From assembly GCF_002836595.1 (NCBI RefSeq), contig NZ_PJBB01000003.1, positions 930,001 to 994,000 on the forward strand: DNA of 64,000 nt. Reading direction: 5' to 3'. The position numbers and the translations under genes were made by a program. This document shows positions 9,137 to 32,487 of the stretch, one piece after another. Positions within the stretch are counted from its first letter, which is position 1, and each line of letters opens with the position of its first letter. Origin of the DNA: Tenacibaculum sp. Bg11-29. GTDB taxonomy: Bacteria > Bacteroidota > Bacteroidia > Flavobacteriales > Flavobacteriaceae. Under the pieces are notes generated by a model, which had not been told where the DNA came from, searched no databases, and saw only the letters and a list, made by a program, of their open reading frames with translations.

Positions 9137-10096
9137 ATGAGTAAAAAATCAACTTATTTATTAGGTATCTTGTTAACGATTGTTGTTGGTAGCCTTTTGT
9201 ATTGGTATTTATGTTGTAGTGTTTGTTGTGAAAAACAAAGCTGTGATGTAAATAAAACAAGTAAAGAAGCATCCCAAGATAATGTTGCAAAACCTAAAGT
9301 AAAAAAACCAACTTTTATTCCATTCAGCATTAACGATGCTAATGGAGATTTTAAATTTTCAATTGATGAGAGCTTTAATTTTAACGAATCTAACTTTGTT
9401 ATTAATAATACTGTTTCAGAAAATTTAAACAATGGTATTTTAAATATTAAAGAGTATTTAGATGCAAATGGAAACAAACGTTTTAATATTACAGGGTATT
9501 ATACCAGTAATGAAACAAATAATTCAGCATTTCCAAATTTAGGTTTAGCAAGAGCTAATTCTGTAAAAAACTACATGACAACTAAAGGAATATCATCTAA
9601 AGTAATTAACACCTTTGGTGGATTAAAAGATGATATTGTTTCTGATAAAAATAAGGACTTCTTAGGGCCTTTATCGTTCGATATTTTTACAAGAACAGAT
9701 GAGGCTACTTTAAAAGATAAAGAGTTTAAAGAAATTTGTGAAACAATTAAAGAGAATCCTTTAAAACTTTATTTTGATTCTGGTAAAGCTCATATTAATT
9801 TATCAAAAGAACAACGTGAAAAATTTACAAGTATTTCTAGTTGTATTGATAAACTAGGAATGATTGTTCAAGTAATAGGACATACAGATAATACTGGTAA
9901 TTCTGAAAACAATATGAATCTTGGTCAAAAACGAGCAGATTTTGTGAAAGACTATTTGGTACAAAATGGTATTTTAAAAGAGAATATAGAAACTTCTTCA
10001 AAAGGTCAAAACCAACCAATTGCTAATAATGCAACCAAAGAAGGAAGAGTAAAAAACAGAAGAATTGTAGTAACAATAACTAAATCAAAAAAATAA
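9137..10096 (+). CDS. OmpA-family protein with two tandem OmpA-like domains
   Basis: This 319-residue protein has an N-terminal membrane anchor (about residues 7-25), a cysteine cluster (CCSVCCEKQSC, 26-36), and a C-terminal OmpA domain at about 205-315 (LYFDSGKAHI, IGHTDNTGNSENN, GQKRADFVKDYL). The OmpA fold binds peptidoglycan. Residues about 75-185 (ITGYYTSNETNN ... NLGLARANSVKNYM) look like a degenerate copy of the same domain. The next gene, 4 bp downstream, encodes a coiled-coil membrane protein and is surely in the same transcript. Confidence 0.9.
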   Translation: MSKKSTYLLGILLTIVVGSLLYWYLCCSVCCEKQSCDVNKTSKEASQDNVAKPKVKKPTFIPFSINDANGDFKFSIDESFNFNESNFVINNTVSENLNNGILNIKEYLDANGNKRFNITGYYTSNETNNSAFPNLGLARANSVKNYMTTKGISSKVINTFGGLKDDIVSDKNKDFLGPLSFDIFTRTDEATLKDKEFKEICETIKENPLKLYFDSGKAHINLSKEQREKFTSISSCIDKLGMIVQVIGHTDNTGNSENNMNLGQKRADFVKDYLVQNGILKENIETSSKGQNQPIANNATKEGRVKNRRIVVTITKSKK

Positions 10097-10100
10097 AATT

Positions 10101-10823
10101 ATGAATTTATTAGCAATGCATATACCATGTTGGTTAATTCCATTATTAGTTGGAGTTATTTGTGCAATATTAGGATATTTATTAGGAAGACTTTTCGGAA
10201 GAGAGAAAAATAAAGAAGAGTTAGATATATGGAGCAACAAAGTAACGAGCTTAGAAGAATCTTTAGAAGAATGTGGTAAGAAAAGGTCTGCTTTAGAGAC
10301 CGACCTAAATACATGTAATAAGAATAAATTAAACTTAGAAGCAGATTTAGGAGCTTGTCATAAGACAAAATTAGCTTTAGAAGCTGATTTAAATACATGT
10401 AACAAGAGTAAATTAAACTTAGAGTCTGATTTATTATTAGCAAAATCAAGTTTTACAAGTAAGGCGGCTGATGTTTCAAGTATCACAAATGTAGCATCAT
10501 CTTTTACAGAATCACCAATGCTAATTCCTTTTGAAGCTACATTAGCAAAAGCGGTATTTGGTAAAAAAATTAAAGAGAATGACTTGAAGATTGTGGAAGG
10601 AATCGGGCCAAAAATTGAAGGCTTATTTCACACTTTTGATATTAAAACATGGAAAGATTTAGGTGAGGCTTCAATAGAAAAATGCCAAGAAGTATTAAAT
10701 AGCGGAGGAGATCGTTATCGAATTCATAAACCAAATACATGGCCAAAACAAGCTAAATTAGCTTACGAAGGTAAATGGGAAGAATTATTAAAATGGCAAG
10801 ATGAATTAGACGGAGGAAAATAG
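10101..10823 (+). CDS. Membrane-anchored coiled-coil protein with C-terminal helix-hairpin-helix
   Basis: This 240-residue protein has a transmembrane helix at about 11-30, four 14-residue coiled-coil repeats at 51-106 (pattern LExDLxxCxKxKLx), and a C-terminal helix-hairpin-helix-like domain near 163-200 (LKIVEGIGPKIEGLF). Each repeat carries one cysteine (58, 72, 86, 100), so the cysteines fall exactly every two heptads. Proteins with this tail are frequent in Bacteroidota and are usually annotated only as hypothetical. The gene is 4 bp behind the double-OmpA gene and followed by a terminator, so the two proteins may work together in the envelope. Confidence 0.82.
   Translation: MNLLAMHIPCWLIPLLVGVICAILGYLLGRLFGREKNKEELDIWSNKVTSLEESLEECGKKRSALETDLNTCNKNKLNLEADLGACHKTKLALEADLNTCNKSKLNLESDLLLAKSSFTSKAADVSSITNVASSFTESPMLIPFEATLAKAVFGKKIKENDLKIVEGIGPKIEGLFHTFDIKTWKDLGEASIEKCQEVLNSGGDRYRIHKPNTWPKQAKLAYEGKWEELLKWQDELDGGK
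10251..10418 (+). repeat. Four in-phase 42-bp coding repeats
   Basis: The DNA encodes residues 51-106 of the coiled-coil protein as four 42-bp units, with a fifth partial unit after them. Units 2 and 4 are the most alike (both contain the run taaatacatgtaa). The copy number could change by slippage in multiples of 14 residues without a frameshift. Confidence 0.8.
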
Positions 10824-18776: not shown

Positions 18777-18959
18777 TTAACAAGAACAATGAGACCAATC
18801 TATACCATATTGCTCTAATTGATGTTGTATGTAATAATTTCTATCCCTCCAACTACTTCTGCAAAAGTCGGCACAATTAAAAAATATTCTTCCTCCTTTA
18901 ATTTCTTGTTGATCTTTTTTGTTTAACCTTTTTCCAAGGTTTAAAATTTGTTTTTTCAT
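18777..18959 (-). CDS. Double-glycine-leader peptide (bacteriocin/RiPP-like precursor)
   Basis: This 60-residue peptide has a leader, residues 1-23, reading MKKQILNLGKRLNKKDQQEI then KGG. This is the Bacteroidota version of the double-glycine leader recognised by C39-peptidase ABC exporters. Cleavage after Gly23 would release a 37-residue product, R24-C60, with four cysteines (29, 33, 58, 60) as CxxxC near the start and CxC at the very end. It also has many aromatic and charged residues. The unit is isolated between a good promoter (19041-19071) and a terminator (18711-18745). No exporter or modification enzyme is in the window, so export must be in trans. Its activity is unknown. A short AT-rich frame on the opposite strand is not credible. 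Confidence 0.8.
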   Translation of the reverse strand: MKKQILNLGKRLNKKDQQEIKGGRIFFNCADFCRSSWRDRNYYIQHQLEQYGIDWSHCSC

Positions 18960-24074: not shown

Positions 24075-25217
24075 ATGACAATAATAAAGATGAATAAAGA
24101 ATTTGATGCAATTATTATTGGCGGAGGTTTAGCAGGTTTGTGTAACGGAATTCATTTATCTAAATTTGATAAGAAAGTTTTATTGATTGAAAAAAATGAA
24201 TACCCAAAACATAAAGTTTGTGGAGAATATATTTCGAATGAAGTATTACCTTATTTAAAGTTTTTAGAAATAAATCCGTTTGATTTTGGTGCTGTAAAAA
24301 TTAAAAATTTTAAACTATCAACAATTAAAAATAAGCTAATTTCAGCAAGACTACCTTTAGGTGGATTTGGAATTTCACGATATAATTTAGATTTTATTTT
24401 ATCAGAAAAAGCGAAAGAAAATGGTGTTGTAATTTTACAAGATTCAGTTGTAGATATAAATTTTATTGAAGGTGTTTTTCATATAAAAACGAAAGAAAAT
24501 AAAAGGTATAGTTCTGAAATTACAATAGGTGCTTTCGGAAAACGTTCTTTATTAGATATAAAAATGAAACGTGATTTTATTCAAAAAAAAGCACCTTATT
24601 TAGGAGTTAAAATTCATGTGAAAGGAAATTTCCAAGAAGATTTAGTTGCGCTGCATAATTTTAAAGGTGGTTATTGTGGTGTTTCTAAAGTTGAAAATAA
24701 TGTAATTAATTTGTGTTATATCACGAATTTTTCATCCTTTAAAAAGTATAAAAATATTGATGATTTTCAAGAACAGGTAGTTTTTAAAAATGAATATTTG
24801 AAAGAGATATTTAATAACTCTGAGACTCTTTTCGATAAACCTTTAACTATTAGCCAAGTTTCATTTGAAACTAAAAAACCTGTAGAAAACCATATAATTA
24901 TGTGTGGTGATTCTGCGGGAATGATTCATCCACTTTGTGGAAACGGAATGAGTATGGCAATTCAGTCTGCACAAATAGCGTCTAAATTGATTTTAAACTA
25001 CTTAAATGGTACAATTGAAACGAGAAAAGAACTCGAAAAGGAATATATTATAGAGTGGAATAAAAGATTTAGCTTTCGTTTAAAAATTGGGCATTTCATT
25101 GCAATGCTATTTCGGAATGATAAAATTGCAGCAGTTTTACTTCAATTTTTAAAGAAACTACCTTTTTTATTGCCAATAATCATCAAACTAACCCATGGTA
25201 AACCAATGAAAATATAA
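24075..25217 (+). CDS. FAD-dependent monooxygenase/reductase of the UbiH/geranylgeranyl-reductase type
   Basis: This 380-residue flavoprotein has its Rossmann GxGxxG in IIIGGGLAGLCNGIHL, an EKNEYPKHKVCGEYIS block, and the second FAD motif CGDSAGMIHPLCGNGMSMA (GD and P). This class includes aromatic hydroxylases and isoprenoid reductases. It precedes a methyltransferase and a type III PKS, so I infer that it hydroxylates or oxidises the PKS product, as a flavoprotein hydroxylase does in bacterial alkylresorcinol/quinone operons. The start could also be the ATG at 24090 (MNKEF), five codons later. It overlaps the next gene by one base. Confidence 0.88.
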   Translation: MTIIKMNKEFDAIIIGGGLAGLCNGIHLSKFDKKVLLIEKNEYPKHKVCGEYISNEVLPYLKFLEINPFDFGAVKIKNFKLSTIKNKLISARLPLGGFGISRYNLDFILSEKAKENGVVILQDSVVDINFIEGVFHIKTKENKRYSSEITIGAFGKRSLLDIKMKRDFIQKKAPYLGVKIHVKGNFQEDLVALHNFKGGYCGVSKVENNVINLCYITNFSSFKKYKNIDDFQEQVVFKNEYLKEIFNNSETLFDKPLTISQVSFETKKPVENHIIMCGDSAGMIHPLCGNGMSMAIQSAQIASKLILNYLNGTIETRKELEKEYIIEWNKRFSFRLKIGHFIAMLFRNDKIAAVLLQFLKKLPFLLPIIIKLTHGKPMKI

Positions 25218-25927
25218 TGGATTTTTTTATCAGCACAAAAAATAGAACAGATAAAGAAGAAATGATGGATGATTTCTCTATTGGTGGCGATTTGTTACGT
25301 GATACTTTAGATAAGTTAGAATATATAAACCGGTGGTTAGGTGGTAATTTGGTAACCGTAAATTCATTAAAAAAGATATTAAGAAACCACCCCAAAGAAC
25401 AAGAAATAAGCATTGTAGATATTGGTTGTGGTCATGGAGATATTTTACGAGATGTTGCCAAATACGGAAGAAAAAACGGATATAAAATGAAGTTGATTGG
25501 CGTAGATGCAAATACAACGGCTATTGAATATGCAAATGAATTATCTAAAAATTACCCAGAATTAACATTCAAAACCGAGGATATATTCTCTGATGATTTT
25601 AAAAATAGAAAAATTGATGTGGTTATGGCAACCTTATTCTTCCACCATTTTAAAGAAGATCAATTAGTTTCTTTTTTAAAAGATACCTTAAAACAGGTGA
25701 AAATAGGTATTGTTGTAAATGATTTACATAGGCACAAATTAGCCTACTACTTATTTATGTTATTATCTATTTTTATCAAAAACAAAATGATTATTAATGA
25801 TGGATTAATTTCTGTTTTAAGAGGATTTAAAAGAATAGATTTAATTAAAATCTCTCAAAAATTAAATGTAACACCACAAATTTCATGGAAATGGGCATTT
25901 CGTTTTCAATGGATAATTCAGAAATAA
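25217..25927 (+). CDS. Class I SAM-dependent methyltransferase
   Basis: This 236-residue methyltransferase has SAM motif I at about 66-75 (IVDIGCGHGD), an acidic loop (LIGVDANTTAIEYA) and motif IV-like VVMATLFFHHF. Its place between a flavoprotein and the type III PKS suggests O- or C-methylation of the polyketide. Its start overlaps the stop of the previous gene by one base, and the PKS start follows its own stop with no gap. This indicates translational coupling. Confidence 0.9.
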   Translation: MDFFISTKNRTDKEEMMDDFSIGGDLLRDTLDKLEYINRWLGGNLVTVNSLKKILRNHPKEQEISIVDIGCGHGDILRDVAKYGRKNGYKMKLIGVDANTTAIEYANELSKNYPELTFKTEDIFSDDFKNRKIDVVMATLFFHHFKEDQLVSFLKDTLKQVKIGIVVNDLHRHKLAYYLFMLLSIFIKNKMIINDGLISVLRGFKRIDLIKISQKLNVTPQISWKWAFRFQWIIQK

Positions 25928-26980
25928 ATGGCAGTAAAAATAACAGCAGTTGCAAAACAACTTCCAAAATATTATAGAGAAACAAAAGATATTATTCCGT
26001 TTGTAAAATTATGGATGAAAGATCAAGATACTCGTTTTCAGAGAAAAGTAATTAAACTTTTTGAAGGAGCTGCAGTAGATAAACGTTATTCAATTATGGA
26101 TCCTGAAGAAGTTTTTATAGCAACTTCTTTTGAAGAAAAGAATGATATTTATACAAGAGAAGTTGTACAGTTAGCAGAAAAATCACTTAAAAAATCTTTA
26201 GAAAAAGCAAATTTAAAAGCAACAGATATTGATTATATAATTACGGTAAGTTGTACAGGGATTATGATTCCTTCAATAGATGCTTATTTAATTAATTCGT
26301 TGCAAATGAAGCAAGATATTGTTCGTTTACCTGTTACAGAAATGGGATGTGCAGCAGGAGTCTCTGGAATTATTTATGCAAAAAACTTCTTAAAAGCGAA
26401 CCCAAATAAAAGAGCGGCTGTAGTTGCTGTTGAAGCACCAACAGCAACATTTCAATTAAACGATTATTCGATGACGAATATTGTAAGCGCTGCTATTTTT
26501 GGAGATGGAGCATCTACAGTTATTTTATCTTCTTACGAAGAAGATAAAGGACCAAAAATTATAGACGAAGCAATGTATCATTTTTACGATGCTACAAGTA
26601 TGATGGGGTTTAAATTAGTCAATACTGGTTTACAAATGATTCTAGACAAGGAGGTTCCTCAAAAAATTTCAGATCATTTTCCTGGAATAGTCCATCCTTT
26701 TTTAGAAAGAAATAACTTAACAATTGAAGATGTAAACCACTTAATATTTCATCCCGGAGGTAAAAAAATCGTACAAACAGTTGAGAATTTGTTTGGGGAT
26801 TTAGGGAAAAACATAGATGATACAAAAGAAGTTTTACGCTTGTATGGTAATATGTCTAGCGCAACAGTTCTATATGTTTTAGAGCGATTTATGGATAGAA
26901 ACCCCGCAAAAGGAGAAAGAGGTTTAATGTTAAGCTTTGGGCCAGGTTTTTCTGCACAACGTATTTTATTAGAGTGGTAA
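25928..26980 (+). CDS. Type III polyketide synthase (chalcone-synthase-like)
   Basis: This 350-residue type III PKS has the full catalytic triad: Cys141 in TEMGCAAGVSG, His275 in IFHPGGKK and Asn308 in LYGNMSSATV. The C-terminal GFGPG-type loop reads LSFGPGFSAQ. The homodimeric enzyme would extend an acyl starter with malonyl units and cyclise it to a pyrone, resorcinol or related ring. Starter and ring type cannot be read directly, but the ACP, ketosynthase and dehydratase genes downstream suggest an acyl-ACP-derived starter. It is the core of the operon from 24075 to 29964. Confidence 0.95.
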   Translation: MAVKITAVAKQLPKYYRETKDIIPFVKLWMKDQDTRFQRKVIKLFEGAAVDKRYSIMDPEEVFIATSFEEKNDIYTREVVQLAEKSLKKSLEKANLKATDIDYIITVSCTGIMIPSIDAYLINSLQMKQDIVRLPVTEMGCAAGVSGIIYAKNFLKANPNKRAAVVAVEAPTATFQLNDYSMTNIVSAAIFGDGASTVILSSYEEDKGPKIIDEAMYHFYDATSMMGFKLVNTGLQMILDKEVPQKISDHFPGIVHPFLERNNLTIEDVNHLIFHPGGKKIVQTVENLFGDLGKNIDDTKEVLRLYGNMSSATVLYVLERFMDRNPAKGERGLMLSFGPGFSAQRILLEW

Positions 26981-26989
26981 AAAGTAAAT

Positions 26990-27430
26990 ATGAATTATAC
27001 AGAAATCATAAAACATCTTCCATATAAAACACCTTTCTTGTTTGTTGATGAGCTTACCGAAATTTCAGAAAAAGGAGTTAAAGGAAGTTATAAATTCAAA
27101 GAAAAGGAATTTTTTTATGAAGGCCATTTTAAAGAAAACCCGATTACGCCAGGAGTTATTTTAACAGAAGCAATGGCACAAATTGGTGTTGTTTGCTTGG
27201 GGATTTATTTACTGAAAAATGAAATTTCATCAGAAAAAAAACCACAAATAGCATTAACGTCAAATAAAATTGATTTTTATTTACCTGTTTTACCAAACGA
27301 AAAAGTTATGGTAATTTCAGAGACATTATATTTTAGGTTTAATAAATTAAAATGTGCTGTAAAAATGATGAATGAGAAAAATGAATTGGTTTGTAGAGGA
27401 ACAATCTCTGGAATGGTAATAGTAAAATAA
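26990..27430 (+). CDS. 3-hydroxyacyl-ACP dehydratase (FabZ-like hotdog protein)
   Basis: This 146-residue hotdog-fold protein has the FabZ active site in modified form: His46 in YEGHFKENPITPG, and an acidic residue at 60 in ILTEAMAQIG. HLPYKTPFLFVDELTEI at the N-terminus also matches FabZ/FabA. It would dehydrate 3-hydroxyacyl-ACP during starter chain building. It is separate from the housekeeping fatty-acid genes and sits 9 bp after the PKS gene, which argues for a pathway-specific role. Confidence 0.88.
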   Translation: MNYTEIIKHLPYKTPFLFVDELTEISEKGVKGSYKFKEKEFFYEGHFKENPITPGVILTEAMAQIGVVCLGIYLLKNEISSEKKPQIALTSNKIDFYLPVLPNEKVMVISETLYFRFNKLKCAVKMMNEKNELVCRGTISGMVIVK

Positions 27431-27431
27431 A

Positions 27432-28706
27432 ATGAAGAATAGAGTTGTAATTACAGGTTTAGGAATTGTTGCACCAAACGGAGTAGGTTTGCAAGAGTTT
27501 ACTGACGCGATAAAGTTAGGAACTTCAGGAATTACATTTCATCAGAATTTAAAAGACAAAGGTTTTTCGTGTTGCATTGGTGGAATTCCAGCAGTTTCTG
27601 AAGAAAAAAAATTAGAATATCTAACACCTTTACAACTTCGAGGGTTTAATAGTACTTCTATTTTATATGGTTGTATGGCAGGGATTGATGCCTGGAAAGA
27701 TGCAGGTTTTTCTGTAGATGAAAATTCAAGTTTAGATTATAATTCTGGGCTAATCTTTGGAACAGGAACCTCTGGGATAGAAAAATTTAGAGAAGCAATT
27801 TATAAAATTGATGATCAAAAAGTAAAACGATTAGGAAGTACATCTGTAGTACAAACAATGGCAAGTGGAGTTTCGGCGTATTTAGGCGGGATTTTGGGTT
27901 TGGGGAATCAAGTAACCACAAATTCGTCTGCTTGTACAACAGGTACGGAAGCTTTGTTGTTAGGTTTTGAGCGAATAAAATCAGGAAAAGCAAAACGGAT
28001 GCTAGTGGGTAGTTCTAGTGATAGTAGTCTGTATACTTGGGGAGGTTTTGATGCAATGCGAGTAATGTCTTATAAACATAATGAAACTCCAGAAAAAGGT
28101 TCGAGACCAATGAGTGAAACTGCATCTGGTTTTGTGCCAGGAAGTGGAGCAGGAGCCATCGTTTTAGAGTCTTTAGAAAGTGCTTTAGAAAGAAAAACTA
28201 CTATTTATGCTGAAGTTTTAGGCGGAAATATTAATTCTGGAGGGCAAAGAAACGGTGGTACTTTAACAGCTCCAAATGCAGAGGCTGTTCAAAAATGTAT
28301 TACCGATGCTTTATTAGATTCAAAAATTTCATCAGAAGAAATAGATGTTTTAAACGGGCATTTAACAGCAACATCCAAAGATGGTTTAGAAATAGAAAAT
28401 TGGACGAAAGCATTGAATAGAAAAGGAGATGATTTTCCTCAAATAAATTCATTAAAATCTATGGTTGGACATTGTTTGGCTGCCTCAGGTGCTATTGAAT
28501 CTGTTGCTTCGATTTTACAGATTAAAGAACAGTTTATATTTCCAAATATTAATTGTGAAGACATACATCCTGATATTTCTAAATTAATTTCTGTAGATAA
28601 AATTCCAACGAAATTGATTCATAAAGACATAAACATTTTAGCAAAAGCAAGTTTTGGTTTTGGTGATGTGAACGCATGTGTTATATTCAAAAAATATTCA
28701 AAATAA
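27432..28706 (+). CDS. Beta-ketoacyl-[ACP] synthase family protein
   Basis: This 424-residue KAS II-type condensing enzyme has nucleophile Cys168 (TNSSACTTG) and two histidines, His310 (NGHLTATSKDG) and His347 (SMVGHCLAASG). The NGHLTATS block replaces the more usual HGTSTPL, so it belongs to a diverged branch like those in aryl polyene and type III PKS loci of Bacteroidota. It would elongate an acyl chain on the dedicated ACP encoded just downstream. The start follows the dehydratase stop by 1 bp. Confidence 0.92.
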   Translation: MKNRVVITGLGIVAPNGVGLQEFTDAIKLGTSGITFHQNLKDKGFSCCIGGIPAVSEEKKLEYLTPLQLRGFNSTSILYGCMAGIDAWKDAGFSVDENSSLDYNSGLIFGTGTSGIEKFREAIYKIDDQKVKRLGSTSVVQTMASGVSAYLGGILGLGNQVTTNSSACTTGTEALLLGFERIKSGKAKRMLVGSSSDSSLYTWGGFDAMRVMSYKHNETPEKGSRPMSETASGFVPGSGAGAIVLESLESALERKTTIYAEVLGGNINSGGQRNGGTLTAPNAEAVQKCITDALLDSKISSEEIDVLNGHLTATSKDGLEIENWTKALNRKGDDFPQINSLKSMVGHCLAASGAIESVASILQIKEQFIFPNINCEDIHPDISKLISVDKIPTKLIHKDINILAKASFGFGDVNACVIFKKYSK

Positions 28707-28707
28707 A

Positions 28708-28959
28708 ATGAACGAAGAAGAAATTATTTTAAAGTTAACAAGTATTGTAAAGCCATATGTACAAAATGAAGAGGCTTATAAAAATATAACTGAAGACACA
28801 GATTTTATTAATGACTTAGAAATAAATTCTGCAAATTTGGTAGACATCGTATTAGATGTAGAAGATGAATTTAATATAGAAATTGATAATGATTCTATGG
28901 AGAAAATGTTATCTGTAAAAGCAGTTGTAGCTATTATAAAAGAAAAGGAATCAGCATAA
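28708..28959 (+). CDS. Acyl carrier protein
   Basis: I start at the ATG at 28708, giving 83 residues. An upstream in-frame start at 28678 would overlap the ketosynthase gene. The phosphopantetheine-attachment serine is Ser41 in LEINSANLVDIVLDVEDEF, where the usual DSL is replaced by NSA. It is a small acidic helical carrier. It overlaps the phosphopantetheinyl transferase gene by one base, so carrier and activating enzyme are co-produced. It probably carries the starter chain for the type III PKS. Confidence 0.92.
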   Translation: MNEEEIILKLTSIVKPYVQNEEAYKNITEDTDFINDLEINSANLVDIVLDVEDEFNIEIDNDSMEKMLSVKAVVAIIKEKESA

Positions 28960-29525
28960 TGATTGGTAATGATATTATTGATTTACAGTTAGCAAGAATA
29001 GAAAGCAATTGGCAAAGGAAAGGCTTTTTAGAAAAACAGTTTACATGTAAGGAGCAAGAAGAAGTTTTAAAATCGGAAGACCCATTTTTAAAAGTGTGGT
29101 TGTTTTGGAGCATGAAAGAAGCGGCTTACAAAGCGTATACGCAACAAGAAAAAAAAAGATTTTTTGCTCCACAGAAATTTGAATGTATATTAACAGAAGA
29201 TTGTTTAGGAACTGTGTTTTATCAAGATAAAACGTTTTATACAACTACCTTTTTTAATAGATTTTATGTGCACTCAATAGCAAAAGAAACCCCAAAAGAA
29301 GTAAATTTTTTTTCAGCAATTGTTTCACCTATTTCATTAGATAGTGACCTTAAAAGAAGACTTGCAGATGAATCAGGAATTTCAATTAAAAAAATAGAAA
29401 AAAGGAAATCATCTATTGGTGCTCCATCTTTTTATTATAAAGAAAAATTATTAACAAGTTCTTGTTCAATTTCTCATCATGGAAATTACGGAGCGTTTGC
29501 ATTTATTTTAGAAAATGAATATTAA
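28959..29525 (+). CDS. 4'-phosphopantetheinyl transferase superfamily protein
   Basis: This 188-residue enzyme has both halves of the PPTase signature: MIGNDIIDL at the N-terminus (metal-binding Asp) and WSMKEAAYKAY at about 50-60, where the Glu and Lys bind metal and CoA. It transfers the phosphopantetheine arm of CoA to the serine of a carrier protein, most likely the ACP encoded immediately upstream. Its last 11 bases overlap the next gene. Confidence 0.92.
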   Translation: MIGNDIIDLQLARIESNWQRKGFLEKQFTCKEQEEVLKSEDPFLKVWLFWSMKEAAYKAYTQQEKKRFFAPQKFECILTEDCLGTVFYQDKTFYTTTFFNRFYVHSIAKETPKEVNFFSAIVSPISLDSDLKRRLADESGISIKKIEKRKSSIGAPSFYYKEKLLTSSCSISHHGNYGAFAFILENEY

Positions 29526-29964
29526 AGAAGAGTTATATAAACAATGTATTACTTATGTAAACAATCGTTTACAAACGATTGAAGAAATAATTTCATCAAA
29601 TCAAAAAGCGTTACAGTCTGAAACCAAAAGTTCAGCAGGAGATAAACATGAAACAGGACGTGCAATGTTACAATTGGAAATGGAAAAAGCGGGGCAACAA
29701 ATTAATGGAGTTGTAAAGATGAAAGAAACTCTTTCTAAAATTAATTTAAAAGGAAGTTCTGAAGTTGCGCATTTAGGATGTGTTATAAAAACAACAAAAG
29801 CGTCATTTTTTTTAAGTATCAGTGCAGGACAATTAATTGTTAATAATGAAAACTACTTTGCGATTTCAGTTTCTTCGCCAATAGGAAGGATATTATTAGG
29901 TAAAAAAGAAGGAGATACTTTTGTTTTTAACACGACAAAACAAACAATAAAAGAAATTTTTTAA
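29515..29964 (+). CDS. GreA/GreB C-terminal-domain-like protein
   Basis: This 149-residue protein has an N-terminal helical part with KSSAGDKHETGRAMLQLEMEKAGQQ, and a C-terminal beta domain (AHLGCVIKT ... FAISVSSPIGRILLGKKEGDTFVF) resembling the FKBP-like C-terminal domain of Gre factors (SPLGxALLGKxxGD). Gre domains bind RNA polymerase. Relatives of this protein are sometimes labelled 3-oxoacyl-ACP synthase, probably by neighbourhood, but no condensing motif is present. It overlaps the PPTase gene by 11 bp and is the last gene before the terminator. Confidence 0.8.
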   Translation: MNIKEELYKQCITYVNNRLQTIEEIISSNQKALQSETKSSAGDKHETGRAMLQLEMEKAGQQINGVVKMKETLSKINLKGSSEVAHLGCVIKTTKASFFLSISAGQLIVNNENYFAISVSSPIGRILLGKKEGDTFVFNTTKQTIKEIF

Positions 29965-30044
29965 TTAAAAAGTAGGGTGTAATACCGAATAACTGTTTAA
30001 TAACTAGAAGATTGTTATGCCCTTCATGAAGAGGAAGACATATA

Positions 30045-30080
30045 AAGCACTTTTATCATTTTAGATAGAAGTGCTTTTTT
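30045..30080 (+). terminator. Rho-independent terminator of the type III PKS operon
   Basis: AAGCACTTTTATC pairs with GATAGAAGTGCTT (one G-U pair), followed by a run of nine or more T. It marks the operon's 3' end, 81 bp after the last gene. Confidence 0.9.
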
Positions 30081-31404: not shown

Positions 31405-32487
31405 TTAATTTGATTCTAGTTTGATTGGGTCACTAGCTATGACTTGTATGTTTGATTTTCTTAAATAGCTTATGCTCCCAATACTTCCTTTATTTTCTAA
31501 GTATTTATTAAGATCTCTAACATTAAGAAGGTTTCTATTTAATTCTCCGAAAGGAGCATTTGTTTCCGATAAATTATAATAATAATAAGCCTCATAGTCA
31601 CCTTTAACTCTGTAAGGAATATGATAGGTCGCATCTATAGAAGTCATATCTGTAATGATTCTAATAATTCTTTTAGACCTTGGAGGTAATTGTGCAGTAT
31701 ATTGAGCTGAAATTGTTTCAAGAGTATTTTTTGTATTTGTATACCCGGAGTTAATCTCAACACCAACGGAAAATTTAGCTTCTGCTAATAATGGAACTTT
31801 TACAGTTCCTTCAAAACCTACAGAAACACCTACAGAAACACTTACTTCTTGTTGCATTCCCTCTTCATAAGAATAGGTGTACGTAGCAGTGTCTGAAGTA
31901 TTTCCTAAATTTGTCACAACAAATTCATGTACATCTTTTTGTTTTGGTACATGGTTTCTTAGGGTTACTACTGGTTCCTCAAGATGTAAGAAAAGTCGAT
32001 TAGAACCACTAGTTGCATATATTGGAGAGTACCCATGTGTATTATTTAAAGCGTCTTCTCCATCAAAGAAAATAGCATAAGGTTCGTACCATACAGAATG
32101 AACACCCCAACTAGACTGAGACCACCTTCTTGTTTCTTGAATTAATTCATTGTTTGTTAGACCTAAACCTCTTAATTCTGCAAGATTCATTGCTTTAGAT
32201 CCTGGAAGTTCTAATTGATTATTAATATTTCTTTCAAATATTTCTTCATTATTTTTACCTTCTTTAATAATGGTCCAATCATTACTAAGTGCCATTTCTT
32301 CAAGAGCTTTTTTGGCTTCTTTTTCTGTTAGTTTGGTTTGATGAAACTCAATATTTTCACTCGATTCTAATATTCTTTCATCATTTTCACATGAATACCC
32401 TATAAAAACTAGCAGTGTTAATGCCGTAATCTTTATTCTTATTATTTTCTTTTTAATTCTTAAATTTTTGTTAGTTTTTAGTTTCAT
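31405..32487 (-). CDS. Secreted/lipoprotein with aerolysin-ETX/MTX2-like pore-forming region (candidate)
   Basis: This 360-residue protein starts with a basic N-terminus and a hydrophobic segment (TALTLLVFIGYSC, C33), consistent with SPII export, although the lipobox is imperfect. Residues 40-200 include an aromatic-rich part (SSWGVHSVWYEPYAIFFDG). Residues 200-290 show the beta-pore pattern: Ser/Thr-rich strands around an amphipathic alternating hairpin (EVSVSVGVSVGF, then KVPLLAEAKFSVGVEI), then TNTKNTLETISAQYT and QLPPRSKRIIRI. The last resembles the VPP block of ETX/MTX2 proteins. This fold makes oligomeric pores in target membranes. It is monocistronic with a C6 tract six bases before the ATG. 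The call is by pattern only and the target is unknown. Confidence 0.6.
   Translation of the reverse strand: MKLKTNKNLRIKKKIIRIKITALTLLVFIGYSCENDERILESSENIEFHQTKLTEKEAKKALEEMALSNDWTIIKEGKNNEEIFERNINNQLELPGSKAMNLAELRGLGLTNNELIQETRRWSQSSWGVHSVWYEPYAIFFDGEDALNNTHGYSPIYATSGSNRLFLHLEEPVVTLRNHVPKQKDVHEFVVTNLGNTSDTATYTYSYEEGMQQEVSVSVGVSVGFEGTVKVPLLAEAKFSVGVEINSGYTNTKNTLETISAQYTAQLPPRSKRIIRIITDMTSIDATYHIPYRVKGDYEAYYYYNLSETNAPFGELNRNLLNVRDLNKYLENKGSIGSISYLRKSNIQVIASDPIKLESN

Follow-up and report, generated by a model that had tools for sequence, protein, structure and literature searches.

A candidate two-module operon of Tenacibaculum sp. Bg11-29 in which a partial type II fatty-acid line may feed a type III polyketide synthase

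Why is the gene for a type III polyketide synthase (PKS) of Tenacibaculum sp. Bg11-29 embedded among genes of a partial fatty-acid machine, and do the two sets work on one product? The locus lies in a stretch of 64,000 nucleotides (positions 930,001 to 994,000 of contig NZ_PJBB01000003.1, assembly GCF_002836595.1; hereafter the window), in which open reading frames (ORFs) checked against Pfam place eight same-strand genes at 24075-29964. In order, these encode a flavoprotein (FMO), a methyltransferase (MT), the PKS, a dehydratase (DH), a ketosynthase (KS), an acyl carrier protein (ACP), a phosphopantetheinyl transferase (PPTase) and a GreA-like protein (Table 1). We consider it fairly probable that the locus is a two-module operon, in which a fatty-acid line feeds the type III PKS to give a decorated alkyl-phenol or alkyl-quinone lipid. 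All of the parts are of known kinds; the novelty is their combination.

The genes are tightly packed. FMO and MT overlap by 1 bp, MT and PKS abut with 0 bp between them, and gaps of 9 bp and 1 bp separate PKS from DH and DH from KS. KS and ACP are 1 bp apart (with the ACP start at ATG 28708), ACP and PPTase overlap by 1 bp, and PPTase and the GreA-like gene by 11 bp. A sequence-only reading of this DNA had described eight co-directional genes with gaps of at most 9 bp and several overlaps, and this layout was confirmed. Its family assignments hold up in Pfam and NCBIfam, and alignments bore out its catalytic residues in the PKS, the KS (Cys168) and the ACP. The PKS triad Cys141/His275/Asn308 aligned to that of Pks11 and others and was invariant in 100/100 aligned rows; a Cys-His-Asn triad in a chalcone-synthase-like protein is what identifies a type III PKS. 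Among solved proteins, the alpha-pyrone enzyme Pks11 comes closest to it (175 bits), followed by 1u0m (145 bits) and CylI (142 bits; fourth listed). The catalytic residues of the other enzymes were equally constant: the KS Cys-His-His set in 93/93 rows, DH His46/Glu60 in 94/94, ACP Ser41 in 89/89 and PPTase Asp5 and Lys53-Glu54 in 85/85. These row sets left out copies outside 0.8-1.3x the length of the window protein or under the score threshold. An elongating KS with Cys-His-His, a FabZ-type DH and a discrete ACP together make up a type II fatty-acid set. The structure model of the FMO was good, and its fold matches ranked halogenases first, matches that do not settle its chemistry; that it acts as a ring hydroxylase is our guess.

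Some type III PKS was found in 168 of 395 genomes sampled across the phylum, and the clade of the window PKS is sharply bounded within them: 33 of the 395 (its own genome included) carry a PKS at least 65% identical, and the other matches listed are at most 39% identical. In a gene-neighbourhood comparison, of the kind proposed with the sequence-only reading, we set 20 of the 33 high-identity loci against 20 low-identity loci (30-36%). FMO, MT, PKS, DH, KS and ACP stood in the same order in 20/20 high-identity loci, which argues that the cluster is not a chance assembly; the PPTase was present in 16/20. By contrast, DH, KS or ACP was found within 8.5 kb of the distant Bacteroidota PKS genes in 0/20 loci, one of which (L133) had FMO and MT. 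A second set held 80 loci kept of 562 relatives, with KS in 74 and ACP in 71. Five of its six KS-less loci are cut by contig ends, and the KS and ACP gaps as a whole all lie at contig ends except in three loci (L027, L028 and L046). The locus of Lacinutrix neustonica (L080) has broken copies of several cluster genes.

To measure co-inheritance, we drew 397 genomes evenly from the Flavobacteriaceae and searched them for PKS and KS orthologues at E <=1e-100. The PKS occurred in 142 (lowest identity 56%, in G572) and the KS in 140 (lowest identity 48%, in G537), all of them within the 142, so that 0 of 397 genomes had the KS without the PKS. Each gene was found in 91 of 237 genera, and the Fisher p value for co-occurrence was 3e-107, a figure that ignores relatedness. 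The same pattern appeared in 26 genomes picked from the phylum sample, where the best KS scored 619.9-937.7 bits in 6/6 PKS-bearing genomes and no more than 190.1 bits in the 20/20 that lack the PKS. One of the two PKS-only genomes, G673, has a contig that ends inside KS; the other, G525, is taken up below. PKS and KS distances correlated with r = 0.94 over 95 loci, a value obtained without a neutral control gene, and the correlation may mirror species relatedness only.

Clusters that have broken up keep their parts. In G571, G531 and G707, FMO-MT-PKS-SDR (where SDR is a short-chain dehydrogenase/reductase gene of many relatives, described below) lies apart from DH-KS-ACP, on different contigs or about 355 kb away, and both blocks are kept; these genomes sit next to each other in the PKS tree, so this split was probably a single event. 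The genome of L046 carries adjacent KS (78% identity, 749 bits) and ACP (66%) genes that fall outside the retrieved PKS locus. In the genomes of L027 and L028, ACP (80% and 78% identical) lies away from KS, at distances of about 80 and 74 kb. L046 and the L027/L028 pair are thus two more break-ups with parts retained, bringing the total to six genomes in three groups that retain the parts at other sites. A functional link between the FMO-MT-PKS trio and the partial fatty-acid machine that the sequence-only reading had seen joined to it is strongly supported by synteny, co-occurrence and retention after break-up. Since the two parts almost always occur in the same genomes, it is very probable that both contribute to one lipid-phenol product.

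In many relatives the SDR, about 265 amino acids long, separates PKS from DH. It was present in 127/142 PKS genomes of the family sample (E <=1e-40) and between PKS and DH in 10/20 high-identity loci, and the window genome holds no orthologue (best match 27% identical). The sequence-only reading had noted that the operon has no ketoreductase or acyltransferase; this stands for the window, but in most relatives an SDR resembling enoyl reductases accompanies the PKS. A Y-x6-K spacing is the mark of FabL/FabI-kind enoyl-acyl-carrier-protein reductases, and in the SDR the Y and K of this spacing were each conserved in at least 95% of 54 aligned sequences. They align with the Tyr and Lys of FabL, with no Tyr four residues before the Lys. 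FabL is also the best solved match, by a small margin (80.0 bits, next 77.4), and the best NCBIfam model, at 142 bits and under its cut-off of 328. The spacing and these best matches point to an enoyl reductase (ER) rather than a ketoreductase; the latter was considered and rejected on the conserved spacing, the bit margin to other SDRs being small.

We mapped the SDR onto a midpoint-rooted PKS tree of 110 loci, each of which had PKS and DH; L071, whose SDR lies at another place in the locus, was scored manually as lacking it. The SDR was present in 63/110 loci, including all branches nearest the root, and its distribution needed 11 changes, of which well-supported branches require 8. This distribution and change count suggest that the SDR is ancestral and was probably lost repeatedly, including in the lineage of the window. 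An SDR fragment sits in place between PKS and DH at L189:9647-9832. Two genomes have the SDR without the PKS (G424 and G637), the second with a 33-bit PKS remnant directly before it. At L184:9202-9366 and 9360-10154, a PKS fragment directly precedes an intact SDR, the other cluster genes being gone from that genome. Eleven of the 80 loci (L008, L014, L016, L023, L025, L028, L034, L036, L037, L043 and L055) have in the PKS-DH gap an ORF of about 187 amino acids (group c16) that looks transposase-like by eye, in L043 and L055 together with the SDR. In the same PKS tree, the window PKS groups with that of Polaribacter irgensii (93% identity), and two copies from its own genus (L136 and L137, in genomes G312 and G088) are only 79% identical and lie near Winogradskyella, a placement for which horizontal exchange is a possible explanation.

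The operon carrier has an unusual motif. Canonical ACPs have Asp before the serine. The operon ACP reads I-N-S-A-N around the serine, and Asn precedes Ser in 88/89 aligned orthologues, also in four divergent members. Pfam finds two ACPs in the window genome, the operon's and one that reads GADSLD and lies beside another FabF-like KS (34% identical to the operon KS); a third KS match is weak (27%, 47 bits). That separate KS adjoining the second ACP led us to reject the idea that the operon KS is a mere housekeeping enzyme. The window genome also has two PPTases, the operon's and one more.

We propose that the first module would be a dedicated but incomplete type II fatty-acid line consisting of KS, FabZ-like DH and their own ACP, which would be served in many lineages by its own PPTase and completed in most relatives by the ER-like SDR. 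Malonyl-ACP and keto-reduction would come from primary metabolism, as would enoyl reduction in the window. In the second module, the type III PKS would take the finished acyl chain, extend it with malonyl-CoA and close a resorcinol (or pyrone) ring, which the MT would methylate and the flavoprotein would probably hydroxylate afterwards. The predicted product is a decorated alkyl-phenol or alkyl-quinone lipid. Direct ACP-to-PKS transfer, the ring type, the order of tailoring, the flavoprotein chemistry and this product are what we infer; the hand-over has biochemical precedents, described below, that make it a reasonable step by analogy. We considered the CoA-binding residues of the PKS as a test of CoA-linked against ACP-linked starters and did not use them, because the extender is CoA-bound and the site would be kept either way.

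Several observations weigh against this pathway. The SDR was not found in 15/142 PKS genomes and is thus not essential, and neither the window operon nor the compared loci held a recognisable ketoreductase or malonyl transacylase. The PPTase is missing from 4/20 high-identity loci, and loci without a linked PPTase can still have the Asn-Ser motif, which is therefore not simply tied to a linked PPTase. In G525, FMO-MT-PKS-SDR stands alone, and the KS has truly been lost because the best KS in that genome scores only 162 bits; the trio may work by itself there, at least for a time. For the planctomycetal enzymes of the trio kind described below, CoA-linked starters have been proposed (PMC10896814). 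The AlphaFold2 model of the window PKS was poor (mean predicted local distance difference test score 54.6) and could not be used for tunnel inspection. Finally, co-inheritance speaks for a shared pathway and not for the direction of flow within it, and related genomes are not independent observations.

The flow could also run the other way. Like DpgA, the PKS would then produce a small aromatic thioester; once this was loaded on the private ACP, KS and DH would lengthen it to an aryl-polyene-like chain. DpgA is the best NCBIfam model for the PKS, though its 175.3 bits do not reach the equivalog cut-off of 425, and a KS and DH without their own ER could yield polyenes. A transporter of the HAE3/MMPL type also lies downstream in 11/80 loci, mostly of Winogradskyella. 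We nevertheless judge reversed flow unlikely: the loci show no pair of KS and chain-length factor (KS/CLF) and no recognised ligase or acyltransferase (their unmatched neighbours being only partly identified), the prevalence of the ER-like SDR among PKS genomes argues for a reduced chain, and the nearest solved relative of the PKS makes alpha-pyrones.

A second possibility, to which we also give little weight, keeps all genes in one pathway but lets the PKS use ordinary long-chain acyl-CoA or primary acyl-ACP, while KS, DH, ER and ACP make a separate acyl group that might end up as an ester or as a further chain on the phenol. Such trio-type PKSs do suffice for alkylresorcinols elsewhere, as reported in passages of PMC10896814, and G525 keeps the trio without KS. 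However, the loci show no recognisable enzyme for attaching such a chain, and the SDR stays with the PKS block in the split or reduced clusters of G571, G531, G707, L046 and G525, which ties chain reduction to the PKS. We think it very improbable that this is an ordinary phenolic-lipid cluster whose extra fatty-acid genes only boost acyl supply, with no private carrier channel: all parts do come from known families and need no unprecedented step, but the conserved Asn-Ser carrier motif is atypical and the KS clade never occurs without the PKS in the family sample.

A more specific form of the two-module pathway is, in our estimate, a tentative and rather doubtful proposal. It holds that a type II line with an Asn-Ser ACP is dedicated to the type III PKS, that the chain is handed from ACP to PKS, that this arrangement is old in the Flavobacteriaceae and that loss of the ER tunes the chain. 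Lineages with their own ER would then make alkyl phenols, and those without one, including that of the window, would make unsaturated chains or borrow the step.

Table 1. Features at and around the operon in the window, with supporting evidence.
Feature	Coordinates	Strand	Evidence
DAO-type FAD oxidoreductase, 371 aa	22902..24017	+	PF01266 E=5e-35
FMO, group A flavoprotein, halogenase / aromatic-hydroxylase / geranylgeranyl-reductase superfamily	24075..25217	+	FAD-binding Pfam family
MT, SAM-dependent class I methyltransferase	25217..25927	+	PF13649 E=6e-14; NF004851 134 bits, under cut-off 243
PKS, type III polyketide synthase, 350 aa	25928..26980	+	PF00195/PF02797/PF08392; Cys141/His275/Asn308
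DH, FabZ-like dehydratase	26990..27430	+	PF07977; His46/Glu60
KS, FabF-like ketosynthase	27432..28706	+	PF00109/PF02801; Cys168/His310/His347
ACP, carrier protein	28708..28959	+	PF00550 25 bits; Asn40-Ser41, not Asp-Ser
PPTase	28959..29525	+	PF01648 E=2e-12; Asp5, Lys53-Glu54 intact
GreA/GreB C-terminal-like protein, accessory	29515..29964	+	PF01272 E=2e-7
Terminator-like hairpin, 14 pairs, then T run	30044..30077	+	terminator scan

The eight genes of the sequence-only reading are all in place, but the extent of the operon needs adjusting at both ends. The DAO-type gene lies 57 bp upstream of FMO in the window and -8 to +4 bp from it in 21/26 loci of L005-L039 that show both (with longest-ORF starts). 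Because it abuts FMO so often, the transcript may begin there, and the DAO-type gene may be the first gene of the transcript in the lineage of the window; it was present in only 4/20 orthologous loci of the phylum sample and falls outside the conserved core. The GreA-like gene is not core either, because its position varies and in many relatives it is located elsewhere or missing nearby; a PHROGs search with its protein gave no match. The terminator scan found 5 sites of the kind listed in Table 1, compared with 2.0 in shuffled sequences. Promoter-like sites were rarer than in shuffles (31 observed, 40.2 shuffled), and we therefore claim no promoter.

The wider sample yielded further observations. 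Orthologous clusters occur in two other families of the class (f10 and f3; L144, L145 and L149), possibly through transfer outside the Flavobacteriaceae. In deep-branching loci, a gene that resembles by eye a fused alpha-keto-acid dehydrogenase E1 (658 amino acids; L150:5609-7585 and L153:4129-6105, with similar-sized genes elsewhere) lies upstream of the cluster, in some with intervening genes, and might hint at branched starters. At L150:13595-14011, in a lineage without a linked PPTase, what looks by eye like a small multi-helix membrane protein follows ACP. Elsewhere in the window, a 60-amino-acid ORF on the minus strand (18777-18959) looks by eye like a Bacteroidota precursor of a ribosomally synthesized and post-translationally modified peptide, with an MKKQILNLGK leader and GG before a Cys-bearing core, and the middle of a 360-amino-acid ORF on the same strand (31405-32487) resembles by eye a beta-pore-forming domain of the ETX/MTX2 type.

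Surveys with antiSMASH have counted type III PKS clusters in this family. They make up 9% of clusters in one survey of Flavobacteriaceae (PMC7440613) and 10.74% of the clusters counted in 2,680 flavobacterial genomes (PMC10734526), and the portion of the latter used here names no product for them. In searches of open-licence literature, we found no description of this gene set, its product or its dissociated type II form. If the two-module pathway is true, a large share of the clusters that now lack an explanation may turn out to form a single predictable lipid family, and the operon would serve as a type II system in which to study the choice of a carrier-bound starter by a type III PKS.

Several known systems resemble parts of this arrangement. 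The srsABC cluster of Streptomyces griseus, with which the sequence-only reading compared the trio, combines a type III PKS, a methyltransferase and a flavoprotein to make methylated phenolic lipids and quinones; its likeness to the window trio is one of gene content, and it is not known to have a private ACP, KS or DH. The flexirubin, aryl polyene and dialkylresorcinol (DAR) clusters of Bacteroidota combine dissociated KS, DH and ACP with an aromatic ring. The window locus differs from these in having a single KS and no KS/CLF pair, and we rejected membership in the flexirubin/DAR group because the PKS matches the DarB model at 25 bits, with a cut-off of 550.

The trio itself recurs more widely. 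Set alongside by gene content, it is matched by the hidABC operon for hierridin in cyanobacteria, described in passages of PMC8086630 as a methyltransferase, an oxidoreductase and a long-chain type III PKS in one operon, and by planctomycetal operons of the same three genes (PMC10896814, in part), whose PKSs gave C15/C17 alkylresorcinols in C. glutamicum. The gene order is MT-oxidoreductase-PKS in the hidABC type (PMC10896814, same part) and FMO-MT-PKS here, and the present locus adds KS, DH, ACP and, mostly, the ER-like SDR; the main text of PMC10896814 makes no mention of FabZ, a dehydratase or a ketosynthase. For the hand-over of a chain, the excerpts of PMC6274091 used here offer two precedents: the ArsA fatty-acid synthase of Azotobacter vinelandii passes ACP-bound chains directly to the type III PKSs ArsB and ArsC, and germicidin synthase accepts acyl-ACP. 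The arsABCD system resembles our proposal in this direct transfer, but ArsA is a type I enzyme, whereas here separate type II proteins would do the work with some steps borrowed. CylI of the cylindrocyclophane pathway likewise pairs a type III PKS with a free-standing ACP on which the chain is started before the PKS closes a resorcinol (PMC8086630, in part); in that route, type I PKSs elongate the chain and it is joined to a second ring.

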